The notes beneath the pieces were generated by a model. It worked only from the letters and a program-made list of their open reading frames with translations, made no database searches and was not told the origin of the DNA. Positions 32,522 through 42,918 of a stretch of DNA of 64,000 nt are shown one piece after another. This stretch comes from Akkermansiaceae bacterium (GTDB taxonomy: Bacteria > Verrucomicrobiota > Verrucomicrobiia > Verrucomicrobiales > Akkermansiaceae): assembly GCA_905181965.1 (NCBI GenBank), contig CAJIZY010000006.1:1-64000 (forward strand). Reading direction: 5' to 3'. Numbering within the stretch: position 1 is the stretch's first letter; every line of letters begins with the position of its first letter. Both the position numbers and the translations under genes were made by a program.

Positions 32522-33268
32522 TTAGGCCCGTCGACGACGTAAGACGAGAAGGCCCCCAGCAATGGTAAGCAGAAGACCACTAGGTTCCGGGATCGTATTA
32601 TTAGGTCCAGATGCAAAGTTAGTTGCAACTTCGGTCGCACTGAGTTCGCCAGACCAGATTCGGAATTCGTCGACCGAGCCGTTCATACCAGGATCGCCCC
32701 AACTTGTGGCACCGATCGCTTCGAAGGTAGTATTGATACTGGATAGATCGTTGGTGTCGACATCAGTGAGTTTTTGGTTTCCGTCGATCCAAGTGTTGAG
32801 ATTGCCATCTGGGGATACGGTGATCGCAAGATGGTGTTGAGCGTTTTGTGAGATTTGTTCTCCAAAGAGTTTTGCTCCATCGCGATCGACGCCGGTTTGT
32901 TGTCCATTTCCTCGAGTAAAGGTAAAGGCAAGTTCTTGTCCTGCGGCATTATTGCCAAATTGGAAAAGCTTACCCCAAGTGCCGGTTCCGCCGTCGGTGT
33001 ACCACGACTCGATGGTCACGCCAGTTGTCCCGAAATTTCCACCAATATCAACGGGATTGGTAAACGTCATTCGGTTGGCCGCGGTGCTAGCACCAAGACC
33101 TGTTAGACTCAGTTTTCCAGACGAGACAGTTGCTCCGCCTTCTAAAACACCGGTGTTGCCACCGACTGAGTCTGTCGTATCAGTATCGAAGGAATATCGA
33201 TGAGCGAGTGTAGCGCCATTGGCGACCCCGACCACGATCGCAGAGGTTAGAATGAAAGTTGTTTTCAT
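32522..33268 (-). CDS. LamG protein with PEP-CTERM sorting signal
   Basis: The 248-residue protein has a signal peptide (MKTTFILTSAIVVGVANGA), one LamG domain (residues 20-220) close in sequence to the two neighbours, and a C-terminal PEP-CTERM signal: PEPSGLLLTIAGGLLVLRRRRA, i.e. Pro-Glu-Pro, a hydrophobic helix and a poly-Arg end. PEP-CTERM proteins are processed by exosortase and exposed in the cell envelope or exopolysaccharide. It is the minimal version of the family and may resemble the ancestor of the tandem set. It is divergent from the CRTAC1 gene and has a strong intrinsic terminator. Confidence 0.9.
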   Translation of the reverse strand: MKTTFILTSAIVVGVANGATLAHRYSFDTDTTDSVGGNTGVLEGGATVSSGKLSLTGLGASTAANRMTFTNPVDIGGNFGTTGVTIESWYTDGGTGTWGKLFQFGNNAAGQELAFTFTRGNGQQTGVDRDGAKLFGEQISQNAQHHLAITVSPDGNLNTWIDGNQKLTDVDTNDLSSINTTFEAIGATSWGDPGMNGSVDEFRIWSGELSATEVATNFASGPNNTIPEPSGLLLTIAGGLLVLRRRRA

Positions 33269-33623: not shown

Positions 33624-36536
33624 ATGATAATTTTTCGGCTATCTTGGGCGGCGAGTATCGCGGTGATTGTTTCGTGTGGTGAGAGGAGTCAACCAAAGAG
33701 CGAACAGGAGACAAGGGATCAGCAGATTTCAGCCGAAGAGGCTTATGCTAAGATGGTGAAGACAGAGGAAGTGATAGCGGAGTTGGTTGGGCCCGTGAAT
33801 CGGTTAAAGCGGGCCGTGGCAAATCTGAAAGTTGGCTGGAATGAAAAGCTTTTTATCAAGGGAGCTAGGTTTAAGGCGATTGCCGATTTGAAATTTTCAC
33901 AGGGGGAGTTCCCCGGGGTCGAGATGGGTGAGTTTTCTCTTGGGAAAGAAGAGCTGGAACTGAGAGGAGAGCGCGAAATTTGGAAGGCCTTATTTGAAAG
34001 GGTGTGGAGATTAGAAAAAATTAGTTTTGGAACTTTGGAGGGAGCTTTTGGTAAAGCGGGAGATTTTCATACGAAGCTAAAGGTGACTTTGCGCGGTACC
34101 ACAGCTGAAGGAAAGCTGGGGGCATGGAATGGGAAATTGGGGATTTGGTGGGTCAAGAGAGAGGGAGAGTGGCTAATCCGTCTAATCGAAAATCTGGAGT
34201 TGAAAGAGATGGTTTGTGAAAAACCGTTTTTTTCAGATGTTTTAGATCGAGTTCTAAGGTCACCCGAGGATTTGGAGAGAGCGCAGCATTCGGTCCATGA
34301 CCAGTATGTTCGAGATGTGTTTTTTACAGGTGGAACAAAATTTTCATACCCGCGACACTATTGGAACTATATCGCAACTTGGGATTCGTTGGATCAGCAC
34401 ACTTCGGTATCAGTTGTAGATGTCGATGAGGATGGGTGGGATGATTTTTATGTAACGGCCCGGTGGGGTCGCAACCAGTTATGGAGAAATCGAGGTGATG
34501 GGACCTTTGAGGATGTTGCGCAAAAAGTAGGCTTGGACCTGGATGGAGTGTGTAATTGTTCTCTGTTTGCGGATTTTGATAATGACGGAGACAAAGACGT
34601 CTTCATCGGGAGAAGTTTGGAGCGAGGGCGGTTTTTCATAAATGTAGGTGGAGTGTTTGTTGATCGAACGGAGGAGAATGTAATTGGAGGAATGCCTTAT
34701 TGGAGTTCAGCAATGTCATCAGCCGACGTGAATGGAGATGGATTGTTGGATCTATATTTGGCGACATATCGATTGCCGATTTCTCGGCCTCGAAATATTT
34801 TAGCGACCGAATTTTTGACACCGGAGGAACAAGTCGAATGGAAACGGAGGAGGGGGCAGGACCATCCGGTTTTTCGTTTGACCGGGCCGCCGAATGTTCT
34901 GCTGATCAATCAGGGGAATGGGAGGTTTTCAAGATCACTAAAAGCTGGAGGAGCAGACTTATGGTTGTCGAGTTTCCAGGGCACGTGGTCAGACTATGAC
35001 AATGATGGCGATCCGGATTTATTTGTGGCTAATGATTATGCGCCAGATTATGTTTTTCGAAATGAGGAAGGACGGTTGGTAGATGTTACGGACGAAGTGG
35101 CAGGAAATGAATTACAGGGTTTTGGAATGGGGGTATCCTTAGGAGACTATGACAATGATGGGTTTCTCGATCCTTACTTCACTTACATGTATTCCAAGGC
35201 TGGGAGTCGAATTACCAAAATGTTCGATGGTTTAGAGAACCGAATGTATGAGGGGGTCAAAGGAAATAAGTTGTTGCGGAATACGGGGGCCAAATTCCAA
35301 CCCGTAAATTGTGAGGTGTCTCAGGCCGGATGGTCGTGGGGTGGGCAGTTTGCTGACTTCGATAATGATGGTTTTTTAGATCTTTATGTTGCGAATGGTC
35401 TCTATACGCCGCCTTCAGGGACTGAAACTGAAGTTGACTTGTGAAGTAGTTTATGGCGCGCGGTCGTGCGTTCGGATAGTAATCTCAGTAAACAGTTTTC
35501 CGAAGAAGGAGTTGATGTAAGGCAGTATGGAGTGATGCCGGGGGTAATTGACACAAGTAAGAAGGTTGATGGTAATCCAGTCCTGAGGAGTCACTCATTT
35601 AGTGGAAAAGAAAGTAACAGTGTTTTCTGGAATCAAGGGGGGGAGGCATTCAAGGATATTTCGGGAGTGACTGGCTTAGACAGTTTAGCGGATGGGAGAG
35701 CATTTGCGTTTTTTGATTTTGACCGGGACGGGCGGAACGACGTCATTTTGACAAATACGAACGAGCCACAGCTGCAGTTGTTCAGAAATGAAATAGAAGA
35801 ACTAGGCAACGCGATCCGGGTAAAGTTGATTGGAGGTAATTTAACGGCTCAGGTGTCTGAGGAATGGAGTTCTAGAGATGGAATTGGAGCCCATGTGTTA
35901 GTCGAGATTGGCGGAAAGACCCTGCGTCGTGAACTGCGGGCAGGCGATGGTTTTGCAGCGCAAAATAGTGAGACCTTACTAATTGGTATTGGAAATGCGG
36001 CCCACGCGGATGAGGTGACGGTGCTTTGGCCTTCAGGAAAAAAGAGCGAAGTAGGAATGGTGAAAGCGGGGGATTTGGTAACGATTGATGAAAGAGTTGA
36101 TGAGGTCGAAGTTCTTAAAATTGCGAGATCGGTTATTCCCGAAAGAGTTGTTTCGCCAAAGCTGGATCGTTTAGATTTAGCAGTCGAAGAGGAGTTAAAT
36201 GTTGTGGTGACCTTGGCAACCTGGTGTCCAGTTTGCCAAGGGGAAATAGAGCATTTAAAGTGGCTTTCGAAGAAGGTGGAGGGGCTGGGGCTCTATGCCT
36301 TCCCGATAGATGAAAAGGAGGGTGAGGAAGAGTGGCGAAAGTTTGAGGTGGCCTTTAAACCACCGTATAAGATTTTACATGAAGTAAATAAGAGGGGTGA
36401 AGTGGAAGCTCTTATGGAGAAGAATTTCGGTGAAACCCCGTTACCTTCGAGTTTTATTTTGGACAAAGAAGGAAGAATTTTGAAGGCGATGAAAGGCACT
36501 CCAACGTTATCGGATTTAAGGTCATTTACTCGGTAA
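33624..36536 (+). CDS. CRTAC1-A: putative selenocysteine-containing CRTAC1/ASPIC-UnbV lipoprotein with C-terminal thioredoxin domain
   Basis: Read through the in-frame TGA at 35442-35444 the product has 970 residues with Sec607. The frame is identical on both sides and no other stop intervenes. A lipobox (VIVSC, Cys18) gives an exported lipoprotein. After a helical region come FG-GAP/calcium loops (VDVDEDGWDDFYV, FDNDGDKDVFIG, DVNGDGLLDLYLA, YDNDGDPDLFVAN, DFDNDGFLDLYVANG), then VDL-Sec-SSLWRAVV, further loops and the ASPIC/UnbV domain (DGIGAHVLVEIGGKTLRRELRAGDGFAAQN). The end is thioredoxin/TlpA-like with ATWCPVCQ (Cys868, Cys871). The Sec site aligns exactly with that of the paralogue at 36526-38853. 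A hairpin with GGUC loop begins 13 bases after the TGA. The function is unknown; the Trx domain and Sec suggest thiol or oxidant chemistry. Alternatives are a nonsense mutation or a stop. Confidence 0.82.
35442..35470 (+). promoter_or_regulatory. Putative SECIS element, UGA plus GGUC hairpin (CRTAC1-A)
   Basis: UGA at 35442-35444. CGCGC (35457-35461), loop GGTC (35462-35465) and GTGCG (35466-35470) form a 5-bp stem with one G-U pair; two further G-U pairs could extend it. The loop begins 17 nt after the UGA, compared with 18 nt and the same GGUC loop in E. coli fdhF. The hairpin lies inside the coding sequence, as bacterial SECIS elements do. Confidence 0.72.
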
Positions 36537-38853
36537 TCGAAATGACCGTTTCCGAGCCGGTTGGTTTATAATTGGTAATTTTTCCTGACGGCCAATGGAC
36601 AGTGAGTTTCTCAAGACTGTCCTTGGGTGGGACAGTAATAAAGATCGATGGCGAATTTTGTGAAGATAGGCCTTGCCCCAGAGTTTTTTGAAAAGCGCGT
36701 TTGGTTTTTGAAGTGTGGGCAATAATAATGGAGCCAGCGGCATCGCGGTTACTTTTTGTGCCGGTGAGATTGAGGCGCACGAGACGACCTTTTTCGTTAT
36801 TGCCGATTTCGGAGAATCGATTGCGGAAAATACGAAGGCGTGGGGATGAGGTGCTAGCAAGGGCAATATCGAGCCAGCCATCGTTGTCGTAGTCGAAGAG
36901 CGCGAAAGAGCGTGAATCTTCGCTGGCATCAATTCCACTGATGAGGGAGTGGTCCTTGAAGCTACCGTTCTGAGAGATGAGGAGGCGGTTACGCTCATTT
37001 CCGCTTAGCGAGTTGCTACGGTATGCGGGACCCGATGGGGAAGTTTGTTTGACGCGGAGTTGAAAATTTAGAAGCGGTGATTGCCAGGCACTAGATTGAC
37101 GAAACTTTTCCGATTGTGTTGGATCAGTGAGCACGACCGTGCTCCAGAAGCAACTTCACAAATCTAGATTAGTCGCAACTGTTTTTGGGGCTGAGTAATA
37201 GCCGCAGGGAACATAAAGATCGAGATGGCTATCGTTATTAAAGTCTGCGAATTGGCCCCCAAATGACCAGCCGGTACGGGTTTCATCAGCATCAGGGGCG
37301 GCGACTTGCCGAAAAATTCCGTTGTCGTTCTCATAAAGGAAGTTACCCCGAGCGGACACTTTAATACGAGGATCGACCTCTCCAACTAGCTTGATGATAC
37401 GATTACCGGCTTTGGAATACATGTTGGACACGAAAAGGTCGAGATCGCCATCATGATCGTAGTCACCGAGCGAAGTGCCCATCCCAAAGGCCATTTTTCC
37501 ATCAGGAAAAGTTTCTTTAAAGGCTTCCGTGAAGATTGGATTAGGGGAGCCTTTTGGGGTGTCATTTCGGAGGTAAGAATCGGGCGAAAAATCGTTGCAG
37601 ACGTAGAGATCGTCATCGCCATCATTGTCAAAATCTGCCCACGTAGGTTGATAGCTTTTTCGCCAAAGCTTGATCACGTCTCCGCCCGCTCGTTCGAGTC
37701 GACCATTTCCACGGTTCATTAGAAGGATATTTGCGGCACCTCTATCATCGAAATAAGGGTGTGAGCTTTGGGAGAGTTTATTGAGATGCGCTTTATCGGC
37801 AGGTGGGAGGTAATAGTCCATCCACGAGGGGTTCACGTCAGTGCCGGGAGTGTAGGTGGAGAGATAGACATCGAGAAGGCCGTCACGATTGACATCAGTG
37901 GCACAGGCAGACACGACGAAAAATTGCTTGCCGAGGTCGGAGAGGCGTGAGGTGACATTTTCAAAGCGGCCTCCGCTGTTCTGATAATACAGCGTCGGTT
38001 CAAGCGAGCGACAAACAAGAGCATCAGGGTCGCCATCGTTATCAAAGTCGGCAAATAGGATGAAATTAACACAGTAGCCAGGAGTGAGTCCAGATTCGAG
38101 AGTCGTGTCTCTAAATGTTCCGTTACCAAGATTGCGAAAGAGTTGTGGCTCGAGGTATCGGGCTGTGATTAAGAGATCATCGTGTCCGTCAGAGTCGTAA
38201 TCGACAATGCTGACAGAGGGGTACTGGAGGGCGCTTTCCATGTCTGGGATACCCGCGTATTCCCGTTTTGGAAGGATCAATTTTTTTTCAGCGAGGGCCT
38301 GTTCTGTAATTTCGTAATGTTTAGAGCGCTGAGCTTCGTCACGGGAGTAGGAGGAGGGAATAGCCTGTTTAGTGACATCCTGAAAAAGGGCTTGCTCAGA
38401 AGCCAAAGATTGGAAGTCGAGTTGGGACCATTTGATGAGTGATGGGGATTCTTTGGGAGAAAACCAGGTGAGATTTTGTTTGGCTTGGATTCCAATAAGA
38501 GAGCCATCTTCGTTTTTGAGGAGTCCTTCGAACTTAGTTTTTGTGATGAAGTTTTTTTCTTCATAGCTTCCTGAGAGAATACCAAAAGACGCATTGAGCC
38601 AGGTGTAATTTGGAGCGAGGTATGGGCGCCAGGCAGGTGGGATGCGTTCAGCAGGGACGTTTTTTGAGCGGAGATCTTGAGCGAGATTTTTGAGATGAGG
38701 AGTGAGCTTGAGAACCATTTCCTCGGTTTGAACTAGGCGCGTTGCGATTTCGTCTGGCGAGGCTCCAGTCTGATCCTGTAAAGGAGGGCTTGGGCTTTCT
38801 TGGGTTTCTCTGCATGAAGCAAGAATAATGCAAAGGAAGAGTAATAGTTTCAT
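36526..38853 (-). CDS. CRTAC1-B: putative selenocysteine-containing CRTAC1/ASPIC-UnbV lipoprotein
   Basis: Read through the in-frame TGA at 37158-37156 the product has 775 residues with Sec566. A lipobox (IILASC, Cys14) predicts a lipoprotein. FG-GAP/calcium loops are DYDSDGHDDLLI, DFDNDGDPDALVC, DVNRDGLLDVYLS, DFDNDGDDDLYVCND, DYDHDGDLDLFVSN and DFNNDSHLDLYVP. The TGA follows TNLDL and precedes SCFWSTVV, matching DL-Sec-SSLW of paralogue A. The end has an ASPIC/UnbV domain (AAGSIIIAHTSKTKRAFQKTL) but no thioredoxin domain. The start overlaps the end of the AraC-type regulator gene (ATGA, 38850-38853), so both are translationally coupled. The 3' end overlaps that of CRTAC1-A by 11 bp. CRTAC1 is a calcium-binding surface-protein family; the Sec role is inferred. 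A shared nonsense mutation at the same codon in both would be a remarkable coincidence. Confidence 0.83.
37129..37158 (-). promoter_or_regulatory. Putative SECIS element, UGA plus perfect GGUC hairpin (CRTAC1-B)
   Basis: On the minus strand the UGA (37158-37156) is followed by 11 bases, then GAGCAC (37144-37139), loop GGTC (37138-37135) and GTGCTC (37134-37129). All 6 base pairs are Watson-Crick. The loop begins 17 nt after the UGA, the same spacing as in CRTAC1-A and one base different from E. coli fdhF, with an identical loop sequence. The stem sequence differs from that of paralogue A while pairing is kept, which suggests compensatory change. Confidence 0.8.
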
Positions 38854-40040
38854 CGGAGGCTGTGATTTTTACGGAAGGCTCCTGGGGTAAATCCAGTTGC
38901 TGCTTTAAAAGTTTTAGCGAAATGTTGGCGGCTGCTGAACCCAGAAAGTTGGGCTACATAATCAATCGTGTATTCCGGGTTGCCGAGAAGGCGCTTCGCC
39001 ATACTTATCCTAGTCTCGACGATCGTAGCGTGGATAGAACGCCCCGTGAATTGACGGAAACGTCTTTGGAGTTCGCGTTTCGATAAAGAAACGTTTTTGA
39101 CAACATCATCGACTCCGATGAGGCTGCCAGCATTACGGTTGATGAAACGGGCGGCTAGGGCAACTGCGGGGTCATTAATTGCGAGCTCGCTGGAAGAGCC
39201 TCGCACAACGAGTTTGGTTGGAGGAATAAAGATGGGGTCATCTTTGGGGGCTTTACCTTCAAGAAGCTGGTTGAGAAGACGAGCTGATCGATAACCGATC
39301 TCGTAATGAGAGGCATCGATACTGGAAAGAGTGGGATTACAGATGTTGCAGCTAACGGAATCGTTATTCACACCAACGAAGGCAATATTTTCTGGGATGG
39401 TTATACCAATTTGTTTCGCAGTTTCGATGAGGATGGGAGCAATGTGGTCACAAGAAACGAAAATCCCAATGGGGAGGGGAAGAGAGCGGAGCCAGGAGAG
39501 CGTCAATTTTTTATAAATGGCGCTCTTTGAAAAATGTAATTTGGGGACGGAGAAGGTGGATGTTTTACAACCAAGTTTTGCAGTGGCGTTCTTAAAGTGA
39601 TCTCCCCTGAGGTCGGACCAACGAGTGTTTTCGATACCGCAGAATCCAAAATTGGTGAAGCCCTGTTCCCGAAGATGTTTGAAAGCGAGCTGAGCGATGC
39701 CGGCATCGTCGGTATGAACGAGGGGAATCGAACTGTCGGAGTGATCGCCTAAGATATCGACAACGGGAATTCCTTTTTCAACAAGGGCTTTAGCCCGAGA
39801 AAGAGAGTGGGTATCGTAGAGCCGGGTGATGACCCCATCGACCGGCATGTTTGGATCAAGAGGCTCAATATGAGACGGACCAGAGTTGTCTTCGTGGAGA
39901 GACCAGCTCCCGGCGTTGTGGTGAACATCCCAGCGATTAATCTCGCTTACAAACTTTGAGATGCCCAGTAGCATGTCACGTCCTGGGGCGATCGCAGTTT
40001 CGATTTCGAGTAGAATCCGCTTACGATGTTGTGATTTCAC
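38850..40040 (-). CDS. AraC-family transcription regulator with LacI/XylR-like sensor domain
   Basis: The 396-residue protein starts with GTG at 40040. Residues 1-270 form a periplasmic-binding-protein-like sensor (RILLEIETAIAPGRDMLLGIS, VDGVITRLYDTHS, LGDHSDSSIPLVHTDDAGIAQLAFKHLREQGF, IGIFVSCDHIAPIL). Residues 285-395 carry the AraC DNA-binding domain with SLSKRELQRRFRQFTGRSIHATI and YVAQLSGFSSRQHFAKTFKAATGFTPGAFRK. This is the XylR-type architecture, in which a sugar bound to the sensor switches the activator, common in Verrucomicrobia. It overlaps the CRTAC1-B gene by 4 bp, so the regulator probably controls its own operon. The ligand is unknown. Confidence 0.93.
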   Translation of the reverse strand: MKSQHRKRILLEIETAIAPGRDMLLGISKFVSEINRWDVHHNAGSWSLHEDNSGPSHIEPLDPNMPVDGVITRLYDTHSLSRAKALVEKGIPVVDILGDHSDSSIPLVHTDDAGIAQLAFKHLREQGFTNFGFCGIENTRWSDLRGDHFKNATAKLGCKTSTFSVPKLHFSKSAIYKKLTLSWLRSLPLPIGIFVSCDHIAPILIETAKQIGITIPENIAFVGVNNDSVSCNICNPTLSSIDASHYEIGYRSARLLNQLLEGKAPKDDPIFIPPTKLVVRGSSSELAINDPAVALAARFINRNAGSLIGVDDVVKNVSLSKRELQRRFRQFTGRSIHATIVETRISMAKRLLGNPEYTIDYVAQLSGFSSRQHFAKTFKAATGFTPGAFRKNHSLR

Positions 40041-40380: not shown

Positions 40381-41371
40381 ATGAAGCCAAAAACTCCCTC
40401 CCTCTCTGTTGATCGTCGTTCTTTTCTCCGCCAATCGTCTGTTGCCGCGGCAGGACTGGGATTCGGAACGATTCCTATTATTGGAATTGAAAAAGAAAAA
40501 AAGAAGCCAATAAGCCAAACAGGTTCGGTAGACCTTTTATGATTCTCTCAGCGAGGAGCAGAAGACGGCGATGTGCTTTCCTTATGATCACAAGCTTCGC
40601 TTGAAGATTGAAAATAATTGGCTGATTACGAAGACACTCGTTGAGCATTATAACAAAGATCAACAAGCGATGATCAAGGAGATCTTCATGGGGATTCATA
40701 GTGAGGAGTATGCTGAAAAAGTTTACGATCAGGTCGAATGGGACAGTGGCCTTGATGGTTTTGAGGGCGGGTCATCGGTGGCAATCTTTGGGACGCCGGG
40801 GACTGGAAAATTTGAGTTTGTTTTGACTGGGCGTCATTGCACGCGTCGTTGTGATGGAGATTCGAATGAAGGAACTGCTTTTGGCGGACCTTTGTTTTAT
40901 GGGCATGCAGCCGATGGCTTTAATGAGAAGCCGAATCATAAGGATAATGCCTATTGGTATCAGGCGGTTCGTGCGAACGAGGTGTATCAAATGCTTGATG
41001 GCAAGCAGCGTCAATCAGCGCTCTGTGGAAAGAGTCGCGGTGAAAAAGGTCGGGCTACCGTGAAGTTGACTGGAAAGAAAAAGGGACTTGATGGTATCCG
41101 TGTTGGCGATATGAGCGGGGATCAAAAAGGGCACGTTCGTAAAGTGCTTGGCGATCTTATGGCACCTTTCCGCGAAAAGGATTCCAAGGAGGCGCTGAAG
41201 TTGGTCGAAGCTGGAGGCTTGGATAATATTCACATGGCTTTCTACAAAGAGGAAAATATCGGGAAGGATGAGATTTGGGATGTCTGGCAGTTGGAGGGCC
41301 CAAACATGCTTTGTTACTTCCGGGGTAAACCGCACGTTCATGCCTGGATGCATATCAAGAAGCCGGTATGA
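40381..41371 (+). pseudogene. Tat-exported DUF3500 family protein with one frameshift near 40545
   Basis: The ATG at 40381 starts a twin-arginine signal (VDRRSFLRQSSVAAAGLGFG). Frame one stops at 40542 (TTA TGA); the DUF3500 domain continues in the next frame from LSEEQKTAMCFPYDHKLRL to the TGA at 41371. Dropping one T of the TTTT run at 40536-40539 yields SVDLYDSLSEEQ and joins the frames. Conserved features are HCTRRCDGDSNEGTAFGGPLFYGH and the end YFRGKPHVHAWMHI. DUF3500 has no established activity. The last bases overlap the start of the following metalloprotein gene (ATGA, 41368-41371), so the genes are coupled. The TGA at 40540 is not a Sec candidate: the frame after it does not encode the protein. 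Confidence 0.8.
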
Positions 41372-42918
41372 TCCGGGGCTTGGTCTTCGCTGGGCTTTTG
41401 GCAGCTCATACGGTGTCCGGGCATGAGTTGACTGGGCACACTGTTTTACTTCAGCCGATCGTGTTGACTGACGATGCGGGCGATGGTGCGGCCAAGGCCA
41501 CCTTGCCGGAGGAGTTGATTGATTTGCCGTTTCGTCGATGGGATCTCGATTTTCAGATTCTTGAACCAGTCGAATGGTCGCGCCGCGCATTTAGGGATGG
41601 TGAGATTGACGTCGACGTGATCGTGAAGGCGGCGAGGGAAGAGGGTGTTTTTCGGCAGCCGCGGCGAATTGCAAATATGTTTTTCGCACGCAAGATCAAC
41701 GGGAGAGCAGCCCCAAATGGTCTTGGACAGGAGCCCGGATGGGTCACTTTTATTGCGCAGGGTGGTGATCCCCCGCTTGGGCAAGATGCCTTTGTGGTAG
41801 TACACGAGGTGACCCACAATTTGGGACTGTCTCATACTGTTGATGATGCCGAGGTGCCATCAGATATTCCTAATGTGATGGGTGATGGGGACTTTTTGGA
41901 TCGCATCCGGGAAGATGGAATCACAAGGCATCAAGCTGCGACTATTTTAAAAAGCCCCTTGGTTCGCGAGACAGTAAAGTGCCTTGAGGTAGAGGAGGGA
42001 CGGCGAGCATATCTCGGGGAGAGTTTTGAAGATTATTATACGGAACTCAACCGGCGCGAAGTTGAGGCGATGACTAGGAATGCGGTGGGGAAAGATTTGA
42101 AAGGTGAGGCTTTGGAAAAAGAAGCGCGGGAGAGGTTTGGAAATGCTGTGATGGGTTTTACTCCGGAAGAACGGGAAGTTCTTCTCTGGATGGTCGGGGA
42201 GTATCGCAAGCTATTGGTGGAAGATTTTCCGCTTCTAGCCAACCAACCATGGCAGGTGGTTAAGGTGAAGAGCGATCATTGTGGGGGATTTTGCCATACT
42301 CGTGGCTTGTCTGTGGTGATTGCTGAGGGTGCGCTTAATCGCATGGTGAACGACTATCGCCGGCACGGCAAAAGTAAGACGGCGCTTGCGGGAGCAGGAA
42401 CGATTATTGTTCACGAACAAATCCATGTGCTTCAGCGGTGTTTCCCTCGAAAGTTTTCCGGTCTTTATACTGGGGCTTACGGATTAGTTGACGGAAAGGT
42501 GGGGCACGATGAGTGGGTGGCGCGCAACGAAATTCAGAATCCCGATGGACTGGAAGGAAACCGCTGGATCGTGGATTACGAGGGGAATTATTATTGGCTA
42601 AAGACAATTCTCGATGAGAAGGATGATCCGGCGATGATGCCCGCCTCCTTCCAGGAAGCGATCATGCCTCTTCGAAAAACTGGCGAGACCTATCGGGTGA
42701 TTTGGAAAAAAGGAGGAAAGAAGCCTCAGCTCGTTAATCCAAATCTGATTAGGGACTGGAAAAAGCAGTTCCCAATCCGTGCCGGACACGATCACCCGAA
42801 TGAGATTTTTGCCTATCTTTTTCAGGCCGAGTTGACCCGGAAAATTATGGGGGAGGAACCCTCTGGTGACCCAATGACAAAGAAGACGATGGCGTGGGCC
42901 CGGAAGGAATTGAGGTGA
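41368..42918 (+). CDS. Secreted putative zinc metalloprotein with two HExxH motifs
   Basis: The 516-residue protein has a signal peptide (MIRGLVFAGLLAAHTVSG). The N-terminal half has a metzincin-like zinc signature HEVTHNLGLSH at residues 146-156, i.e. HExxHxxGxxH, with IPNVMGDGDF soon after resembling a Met-turn. The C-terminal half has a second HExxH in IIVHEQIHVLQRCFP (349-353). The C-terminal part also has conserved HCGGFCHTRG and IRAGHDHPNEIFAYLF. The first motif fits a metzincin protease; the second resembles zinc-binding motifs of other gluzincin-like proteins. It starts inside the DUF3500 stop (ATGA overlap). The two proteins are likely partners. Two catalytic centres in one protein are unusual; one may be structural. 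Confidence 0.72.
   Translation: MIRGLVFAGLLAAHTVSGHELTGHTVLLQPIVLTDDAGDGAAKATLPEELIDLPFRRWDLDFQILEPVEWSRRAFRDGEIDVDVIVKAAREEGVFRQPRRIANMFFARKINGRAAPNGLGQEPGWVTFIAQGGDPPLGQDAFVVVHEVTHNLGLSHTVDDAEVPSDIPNVMGDGDFLDRIREDGITRHQAATILKSPLVRETVKCLEVEEGRRAYLGESFEDYYTELNRREVEAMTRNAVGKDLKGEALEKEARERFGNAVMGFTPEEREVLLWMVGEYRKLLVEDFPLLANQPWQVVKVKSDHCGGFCHTRGLSVVIAEGALNRMVNDYRRHGKSKTALAGAGTIIVHEQIHVLQRCFPRKFSGLYTGAYGLVDGKVGHDEWVARNEIQNPDGLEGNRWIVDYEGNYYWLKTILDEKDDPAMMPASFQEAIMPLRKTGETYRVIWKKGGKKPQLVNPNLIRDWKKQFPIRAGHDHPNEIFAYLFQAELTRKIMGEEPSGDPMTKKTMAWARKELR

Follow-up and report, generated by a model that had tools for sequence, protein, structure and literature searches.

CRTAC1-type propeller proteins with a conserved in-frame UGA: an apparently new family of probable bacterial selenoproteins

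Two neighboring genes of an Akkermansiaceae bacterium, both encoding CRTAC1-type proteins, are each interrupted by a single in-frame UGA at the same aligned codon. We conclude that both genes, P0001 and P0002, encode selenoproteins (probability about 0.94), in the absence of selenium or peptide data. An earlier, sequence-only reading of the 64,000-nucleotide stretch of DNA in which they lie (hereafter, the window) had interpreted the site as selenocysteine (Sec), and this interpretation is supported by the presence of SelA, SelB and SelD in the host genome, conservation of the UGA, co-occurrence of the family with SelA and tRNA-Sec, and a covarying hairpin. The family appears to be new, as it is not named in a catalogue of 119 selenoprotein families (PMC13188914).

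P0001 (970 amino acids; sequence and domain search) occupies positions 33624..36536 on the forward strand and P0002 (775 amino acids) positions 36526..38853 on the reverse strand, so that the two genes are convergent, with an 11-base overlap at their 3' ends. Exactly one TGA, the proposed Sec codon, interrupts each frame: codon 607 of 970 in P0001 (U607; 35442..35444, forward strand) and codon 566 of 775 in P0002 (U566; 37156..37158, reverse strand). Both frames were confirmed at the coordinates given in the sequence-only reading, and the surrounding peptides, EVDLUSSLWRAVVRSD and NLDLUSCFWSTVVLTD, with D-L-U-S-x-x-W-x-x-V-V in common, bear out the shared context Asp-Leu-TGA-Ser-x-[LF]-Trp-x-x-Val-Val that it described. 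The two proteins are 37% identical across P0001 residues 131-821, a match that runs through the TGA. The FG-GAP and ASPIC/UnbV homology noted earlier also holds, with both domains over the Pfam cut-offs in both genes: FG-GAP_3 lies far above its cut-off, and UnbV_ASPIC (cut-off 23.4 bits) scores 55.0 bits in P0001 (residues 753-818; 35880..36077, forward strand) and 25.3 bits in P0002. P0001 consists of a lipoprotein-like start, an N-terminal domain, the FG-GAP propeller, the ASPIC/UnbV domain and a C-terminal thioredoxin-like domain of the DsbE/ResA type with the motif CPVC (residues 851-959; 36174..36500, forward strand). The last is a weak match below curated cut-offs (dsbE, 1.4e-6; AhpC-TSA, 22.7 bits with a cut-off of 26); in P0002, neither the Pfam search nor the predicted model revealed a C-terminal thioredoxin-like domain. 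By eye, the starts of both proteins resemble lipoprotein signals, with a hydrophobic stretch followed by Cys and then by G or R.

Related genes with the UGA are found in many other bacteria. When P0001 was compared with 387 genomes of its phylum, two relatives were detected, both in one genome of another class (G349), each with one TGA, in the peptide DLUSFFWRQVV. A DNA motif pattern run over 84,980 species genomes yielded at least 111 stretches, at least seven of them from the single assembly DLRK. Judging by their titles, the matches come mainly from Verrucomicrobia and Planctomycetes, and those listed also include 15 of Acidobacteria type, 2 of Gemmatimonadetes type, 1 from Myxococcaceae and 1 from Proteobacteria; the position of the UGA does not shift between genomes titled Verrucomicrobia, Planctomycetes and Acidobacteria. 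Propeller motifs surround the UGA in 113 of the 115 frames examined (2 from G349), and 111 of the 113 frames from the DNA-pattern scan are propeller frames that are open on both sides of the UGA within the limits of the stretch. L135 is homologous, but its frame is broken; L062, from a Lachnospiraceae genome, has no propeller motifs and was rejected as a chance match. Altogether, TGA occupies the same codon in 164 distinct segments examined, from several phyla.

The host genome itself contains further copies. A profile search revealed an additional UGA frame at C2:14527-16674, and the pattern search found motifs at C2:16069 (within that frame), C2:74108 and C9:147694, along with P0002; the reversed version of the pattern had 0 matches in this genome, which, together with the three extra motifs, indicates that the pattern is beyond chance. 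At the C9:147694 copy (L232), the frame is broken upstream of the UGA motif. Counting P0001, which the pattern does not match, at least 5 loci of the host genome carry the UGA motif, and these copies resemble Akkermansiaceae and Verrucomicrobiales loci.

The pattern searches presuppose a UGA; we also used a codon-blind profile (A1), built from 53 sequences with UGA read as Cys (64 full-coverage frames were reduced to 51 by identity). Applied to 343 Planctomycetota genomes (the phylum of G388), with about 3 candidates scored per genome, this profile had matches at 1e-80 or better in 91 genomes. Among the 150 matches listed, which are not the full set, 132 contain exactly one TGA, 1 contains three (L208) and 17 contain none, and not one of the 150 has an internal TAA or TAG. 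Of the 133 listed TGA matches, 51 were examined, and in 51 of 51 the TGA is at the aligned site. The residues at this site in the 17 listed matches without TGA are Glu (5), Arg (4), Gln (3), Ala (2), Asp (1), Asn (1) and Cys (1). In the phylum of the window, A1 at 1e-60 matched 9 of 387 genomes, with TGA only in G000 and G349, both SelA-positive; 25 other SelA-positive genomes of that phylum have no such gene at this threshold. In more distant relatives from the same phylum, the site is occupied by Cys in three genes and by Asp in two. Lower-scoring matches keep the UGA in changed peptides, such as DLUMTFVENVGRRS, DGUACLWQAVVSQP, DTUSVFWRHVVASS and EMUSPFWRLVKASG. The prediction that homologues would have either UGA or Cys at this position was thus met only in part: UGA is there in all the TGA matches examined and Cys in L012, L021, L150 and L207, but 16 of the 17 listed non-TGA matches have neither Sec nor Cys. 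This rarity of Cys relatives is unusual for a selenoprotein and argues against common Sec/Cys exchange; we infer that the paralogues with neither residue have lost the redox role.

Downstream of the UGA, the conservation extends to RNA. The proposed bacterial SECIS hairpin of P0001 spans 35455..35472 (forward strand), with the apical loop GGUC 17 nt from the UGA, and that of P0002 spans 37129..37144 (reverse strand), with the sequence GAGCAC-GGUC-GUGCUC. The same spacing of 17 nt between the UGA and an apical loop, GGUCG or GGUC, is found in most segments, and GGUC is present at +16..+30 in 132 of the 164 UGA segments compared with 2 of 23 non-UGA segments. Hairpin classes were chosen by peptide among 148 segments with W at +4 and V at +7. 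In the larger of these classes (132 segments), 93.9% of stem cells are paired and 23 are compensatory, compared with maxima of 88.8% and 6 in shuffled data; when the partners are slid, pairing reaches at most 60.9%, with at most 12 compensatory cells, and one slid version exceeds the true register in further pair types (13 compared with 12). The class that includes P0001 and P0002 (16 segments) is 96.2% paired with 3 compensatory cells, values that shuffles both reach. Compared with each other, the inner stems in P0002 (GAGCAC/GUGCUC) and P0001 (GCGCGC/GUGCGU) show one two-sided change and two one-sided changes.

The mean hairpin energy is -9.5 kcal/mol, compared with -4.9 in synonymous recodings that follow each gene's own codon use. 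In this test, which excluded frames that contained N, had short ends or lacked a propeller motif, 72 of 100 genes reached 0.05 or less, with values of 0.035 for P0001 and 0.04 for P0002. The two Val codons are GTC in 104 of 114 genes and GTG in 108 of 114, even though their third bases were free in the search pattern (the count covers 114 of 117 segments; L046 was too short, and L062 and L135 lack propeller motifs). In relatives with ENVGRRS-like peptides, GGUC lies 21 nt from the UGA and in a different reading frame, with seven-pair stems (six segments). Since the loop and the GTC/GTG usage are kept, and GGUC persists in an altered frame and peptide, it is the RNA that is conserved and not the peptide alone. 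The earlier claim that the hairpins fit bacterial SECIS geometry is correct in itself: this geometry is met in 95 of 100 genes, and in a lax scan of all sub-windows by 160 of 164 UGA segments (154 with the MFE structure). However, 14 of 23 non-UGA segments also pass (10 of 23 with MFE), and the median energy of the best downstream hairpin is -10.9 kcal/mol in UGA segments versus -10.0 in non-UGA segments, so that geometry alone fails as a discriminator. Our case therefore rests on the fixed position of the loop, on covariation and on the comparison with synonymous recodings, from which we conclude that a SECIS-type hairpin is under selection at the RNA level.

The machinery for selenocysteine insertion is largely present in the host assembly (2.64 Mb, completeness 61.6%; the window is in its contig C6). 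SelA (5.7e-124), SelB (1.9e-92) and SelD (2.6e-115) all score over curated cut-offs, and the SelD gene is itself interrupted by an in-frame TGA, whose context, GG-U-ASK, agrees with the UxxK motif that Table 1 of PMC13188914 gives for SelD proteins containing Sec. Of the four sel genes proposed as a check in the sequence-only reading, only selC was not recovered: the search of the host genome with RF01852 (150 of 346 candidates scored) returned only ordinary tRNAs below the gathering score, and ARAGORN found no tRNA-Sec in 20-kb stretches around selA and selB or in 18 kb around selD. Because the assembly is 61.6% complete, this is weak evidence of absence. In the window, ARAGORN detected no tRNA and an Rfam scan at the gathering threshold no RNA family.

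Across genomes, the family goes along with SelA. SelA is over the cut-off in 45 of 49 UGA-bearing genomes (44 of 49 at 1e-40; 4 of 49 have none over the cut-off), hand-chosen from about 82 assemblies, one each; the genome of the chance match L062, added to this set, has no detectable SelA. In the phylum of the window, SelA is found at 1e-40 in 27 of 387 genomes. These two sets differ in kind, and the better test is within a phylum. In Planctomycetota, where 217 of 343 genomes have SelA at 1e-40, it is present in 65 of 70 genomes with a listed TGA match compared with 152 of 273 others (Fisher p 6e-10), and in 78 of 91 genomes with any match compared with 139 of 252 others (p 7e-8), leaving 13 of 91 with a match and no SelA at this threshold. 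Seen from the other side, 65 of the 217 SelA-positive Planctomycetota genomes hold a listed TGA match; the other 152 must either use SelA otherwise or have members below those listed. tRNA-Sec exceeds the gathering score in 43 of 50 selected UGA-bearing genomes and in 0 of 12 controls (11 SelA-negative genomes from the phylum of the window, plus the genome of L062). All 50 are SelA-positive (42 of the 49, G349 and seven from the A1 search), a selection that favors positives; seven of the 49 were left out for having no or only a short SelA match. This search, with 57 candidates scored per genome and stricter filters, found the positive controls in E. coli, Thermus composti and M. jannaschii.

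Could the TGA be a real break, that is, a nonsense mutation or sequencing error in genes that are decaying or mis-assembled? The sources are mostly metagenome assemblies, and damaged copies do exist, namely L232 in the host genome and L135, both with broken frames, and L208 with its three TGA codons. The sequence-only reading had argued that a random nonsense mutation would hardly strike the same codon in two paralogues, and further evidence against a break is the same codon in 164 segments from several phyla, the frame conserved on both sides, the covarying hairpin, and the fact that none of the 150 listed matches contains an internal TAA or TAG. Decay or error is practically refuted by this codon-blind conservation, and we regard it as exceedingly unlikely.

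Two other explanations accept the conserved UGA and dispense with selenium. In one, the UGA would end a first protein and a nearby start would open a second. An in-frame GTG indeed lies 21 bases past the UGA in both P0001 (35466) and P0002 (37134), its presence being due to the conserved Val-Val codons, and in part of the ENVGRRS-type relatives the codon after the UGA is ATG (L214, L216, L225) or GTG (L217). However, L218 and L215, of the same subfamily, have neither ATG nor GTG there, in the large class the next codon is AGT or AGC in 112 of 114 genes, and such programmed reinitiation, which we find very improbable, leaves unexplained the exclusive use of TGA, the association with SelA and tRNA-Sec, and the conserved GGUC loop. 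The other explanation, that UGA is read as a different amino acid (as Trp or by near-cognate readthrough), gains some support from the rarity of Cys at the site in non-UGA relatives. Yet, as the earlier reading had pointed out, UGA is a normal stop in the window, where 15 of the 36 main open frames picked end with TGA, which argues against such recoding; Trp is at the site in 0 of the 17 listed non-TGA matches, and neither the hairpin nor the co-occurrence with the Sec machinery is accounted for. This possibility, too, seems to us highly unlikely.

Returning to the selenoprotein interpretation, the structure of P0002 was predicted from codon 2 onward with Sec as Cys (53 sequences; mean pLDDT 88.9, pTM 0.90). 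Sec is residue 565 of the model, at the start of a helix (564-574). The best PDB match is murine CRTAC1 (9etn; Foldseek E 5.3e-23, TM 0.69 by target length), with a profile match of 7.8e-38. Of the 81 relatives with a complete end, 72 have CxxC in the C-terminal part and 5 stop as early as P0002. The long relatives L035, L036 and L072 contain an AhpC-TSA domain over the cut-off along with TPRs. For P0001, P0002 and these three, no NCBIfam selenoprotein model is over its cut-off (for L036, among the 25 of 32 matches listed), and the sole NCBIfam model over cut-off among the matches listed is a TPR domain in L036.

The mechanism that we propose is inferred in most of its steps. SelB with Sec-tRNA would read the UGA as selenocysteine by decoding at the hairpin, a well-supported step, and both proteins, given the lipobox-like starts seen by eye, would be exported as lipoproteins. 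In the predicted structure, Sec at a helix start in the FG-GAP propeller would be placed in a position that favors a reactive selenolate. Least certain are the steps that follow, in which an extracytoplasmic oxidoreductase would use Sec as its redox-active residue and in most cases restore it through the CxxC of its own C-terminal thioredoxin-like domain (no distances are available), and in which P0002, lacking such a domain, would depend on another protein, perhaps P0001 or a free TlpA. The function, that of an exported redox protein that in most cases has a TlpA-like domain, is accordingly inferred, with no direct data on the redox role or the thioredoxin partnership.

In their decoding signals, these genes resemble the E. 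coli fdhF type, where the UGA is likewise followed by a short hairpin, here with the GGUC or GGUCG loop 17 nt on in most segments. The fdhF hairpin has a GGUC loop. SelA, SelB and SelD in the host genome are a further likeness to SECIS-type bacterial selenoproteins; the difference from the known families lies in the protein family (FG-GAP, ASPIC/UnbV, CRTAC1). With murine CRTAC1, the proteins have in common the FG-GAP propeller and the UnbV_ASPIC domain, but the bacterial ones are probably lipoproteins, have an extra N-terminal domain and the helix bearing the proposed Sec, and in many relatives add a C-terminal thioredoxin-like domain and TPRs. The UGC-containing TlpA family selenoproteins, or ResA-like WAxxUGC proteins (NF041054), share the thioredoxin-like TlpA/ResA domain. 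In the present family, however, the UGA falls within the propeller part, and some 240 to 300 residues separate it from the downstream thioredoxin-like domain, whose motif is CxxC, and the C-terminal domains of L035, L036 and L072 score only 30.7 to 42.8 bits with NF041054 (cut-off 300).

By its own count, Table 1 of PMC13188914 (May 2026) comprises 119 families, none of which is named for FG-GAP, ASPIC/UnbV or CRTAC1. It includes nameless hypothetical families with NCBIfam ids (GOS_B, GOS_C, DG, DW and DF); none of these ids is among the matches listed, and their presence in release 20.0 is unconfirmed. In the accessible portions of PMC12013277, PMC9312934 and PMC4807772, FG-GAP is absent, as are VCBS or ASPIC where sought; for PMC4807772, this covers FG-GAP and ASPIC in the main text, and its Table S9, of Planctomycetes selenoprotein candidates, could hold members of the family. 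So could the groundwater study of Deng et al. (2026, Cell Rep) that is cited in PMC13188914. No Sec-containing CRTAC1 protein was found in the literature searched, which left out the bulk of subscription papers, preprints and supplements.

Gene callers that treat UGA as a stop would split each of these proteins in two, and at least 70 of the 343 sampled Planctomycetota genomes have a listed UGA-containing match. There is, in our estimate, about an even chance that the family is among the largest and most multiplied of bacterial selenoprotein families. Genomes of Planctomycetota, Verrucomicrobiota and Acidobacteriota would then encode several such exported propeller proteins apiece, each carrying Sec on a helix in an integrin-like propeller and the majority equipped with a CxxC domain of their own. 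Together these would make up an uncatalogued cell-surface selenium redox system and a main user of Sec machinery in some of the genomes. For CRTAC1-type proteins, of whose bacterial function we found no account in the papers searched, selenium would provide a handle. The family would enlarge the known bacterial selenoproteomes and would put selenocysteine into a propeller protein, one frequently fused to a thioredoxin-like domain.

In a subfamily of Planctomycetota relatives (loci L214-L218 and L225), the proposed Sec codon lies in the motif DxU....ENVGRRS/ESVGRRS and, despite the differing peptide, is followed by a GGUC-loop hairpin 21 nt 3' of the UGA; in L217, a lax scan picked a different hairpin. 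In L214, L216 and L225, an ATG directly follows the UGA.

The relative L109, a CRTAC1-type gene with the in-frame UGA, shares 56% identity with P0002, and its 4.7 Mb genome encodes SelA. The record is titled as an Akkermansia muciniphila MAG, a name that is probably wrong.

The window's own genome carries an additional UGA-containing CRTAC1-type copy (L232, G000:C9:147694), in which only 151 codons are open in frame upstream of the UGA. Another CRTAC1 relative (L208, G456:C78) contains three in-frame TGAs, one at the codon aligned with the TGA of P0001 and P0002, and the other two shortly downstream.

Within the window, P0001 (33624-36536, +) is divergently oriented to a gene (32522-33268, -) whose product ends, as judged by eye, in an apparent PEP-CTERM tail, PEPSGLLLTIAGGLLVLRRRRA. 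For the 516-aa open frame at 41368-42918 (+), which adjoins a DUF3500 gene, no Pfam match was found at 0.001. The ATG of P0002 (36526-38853, -) overlaps, in the shared sequence ATGA, the TGA stop of an XylR-like regulator gene (38850-40040, -; Pfam domains Peripla_BP_3 and AraC-type HTH), and the regulator and P0002 may therefore be co-transcribed.
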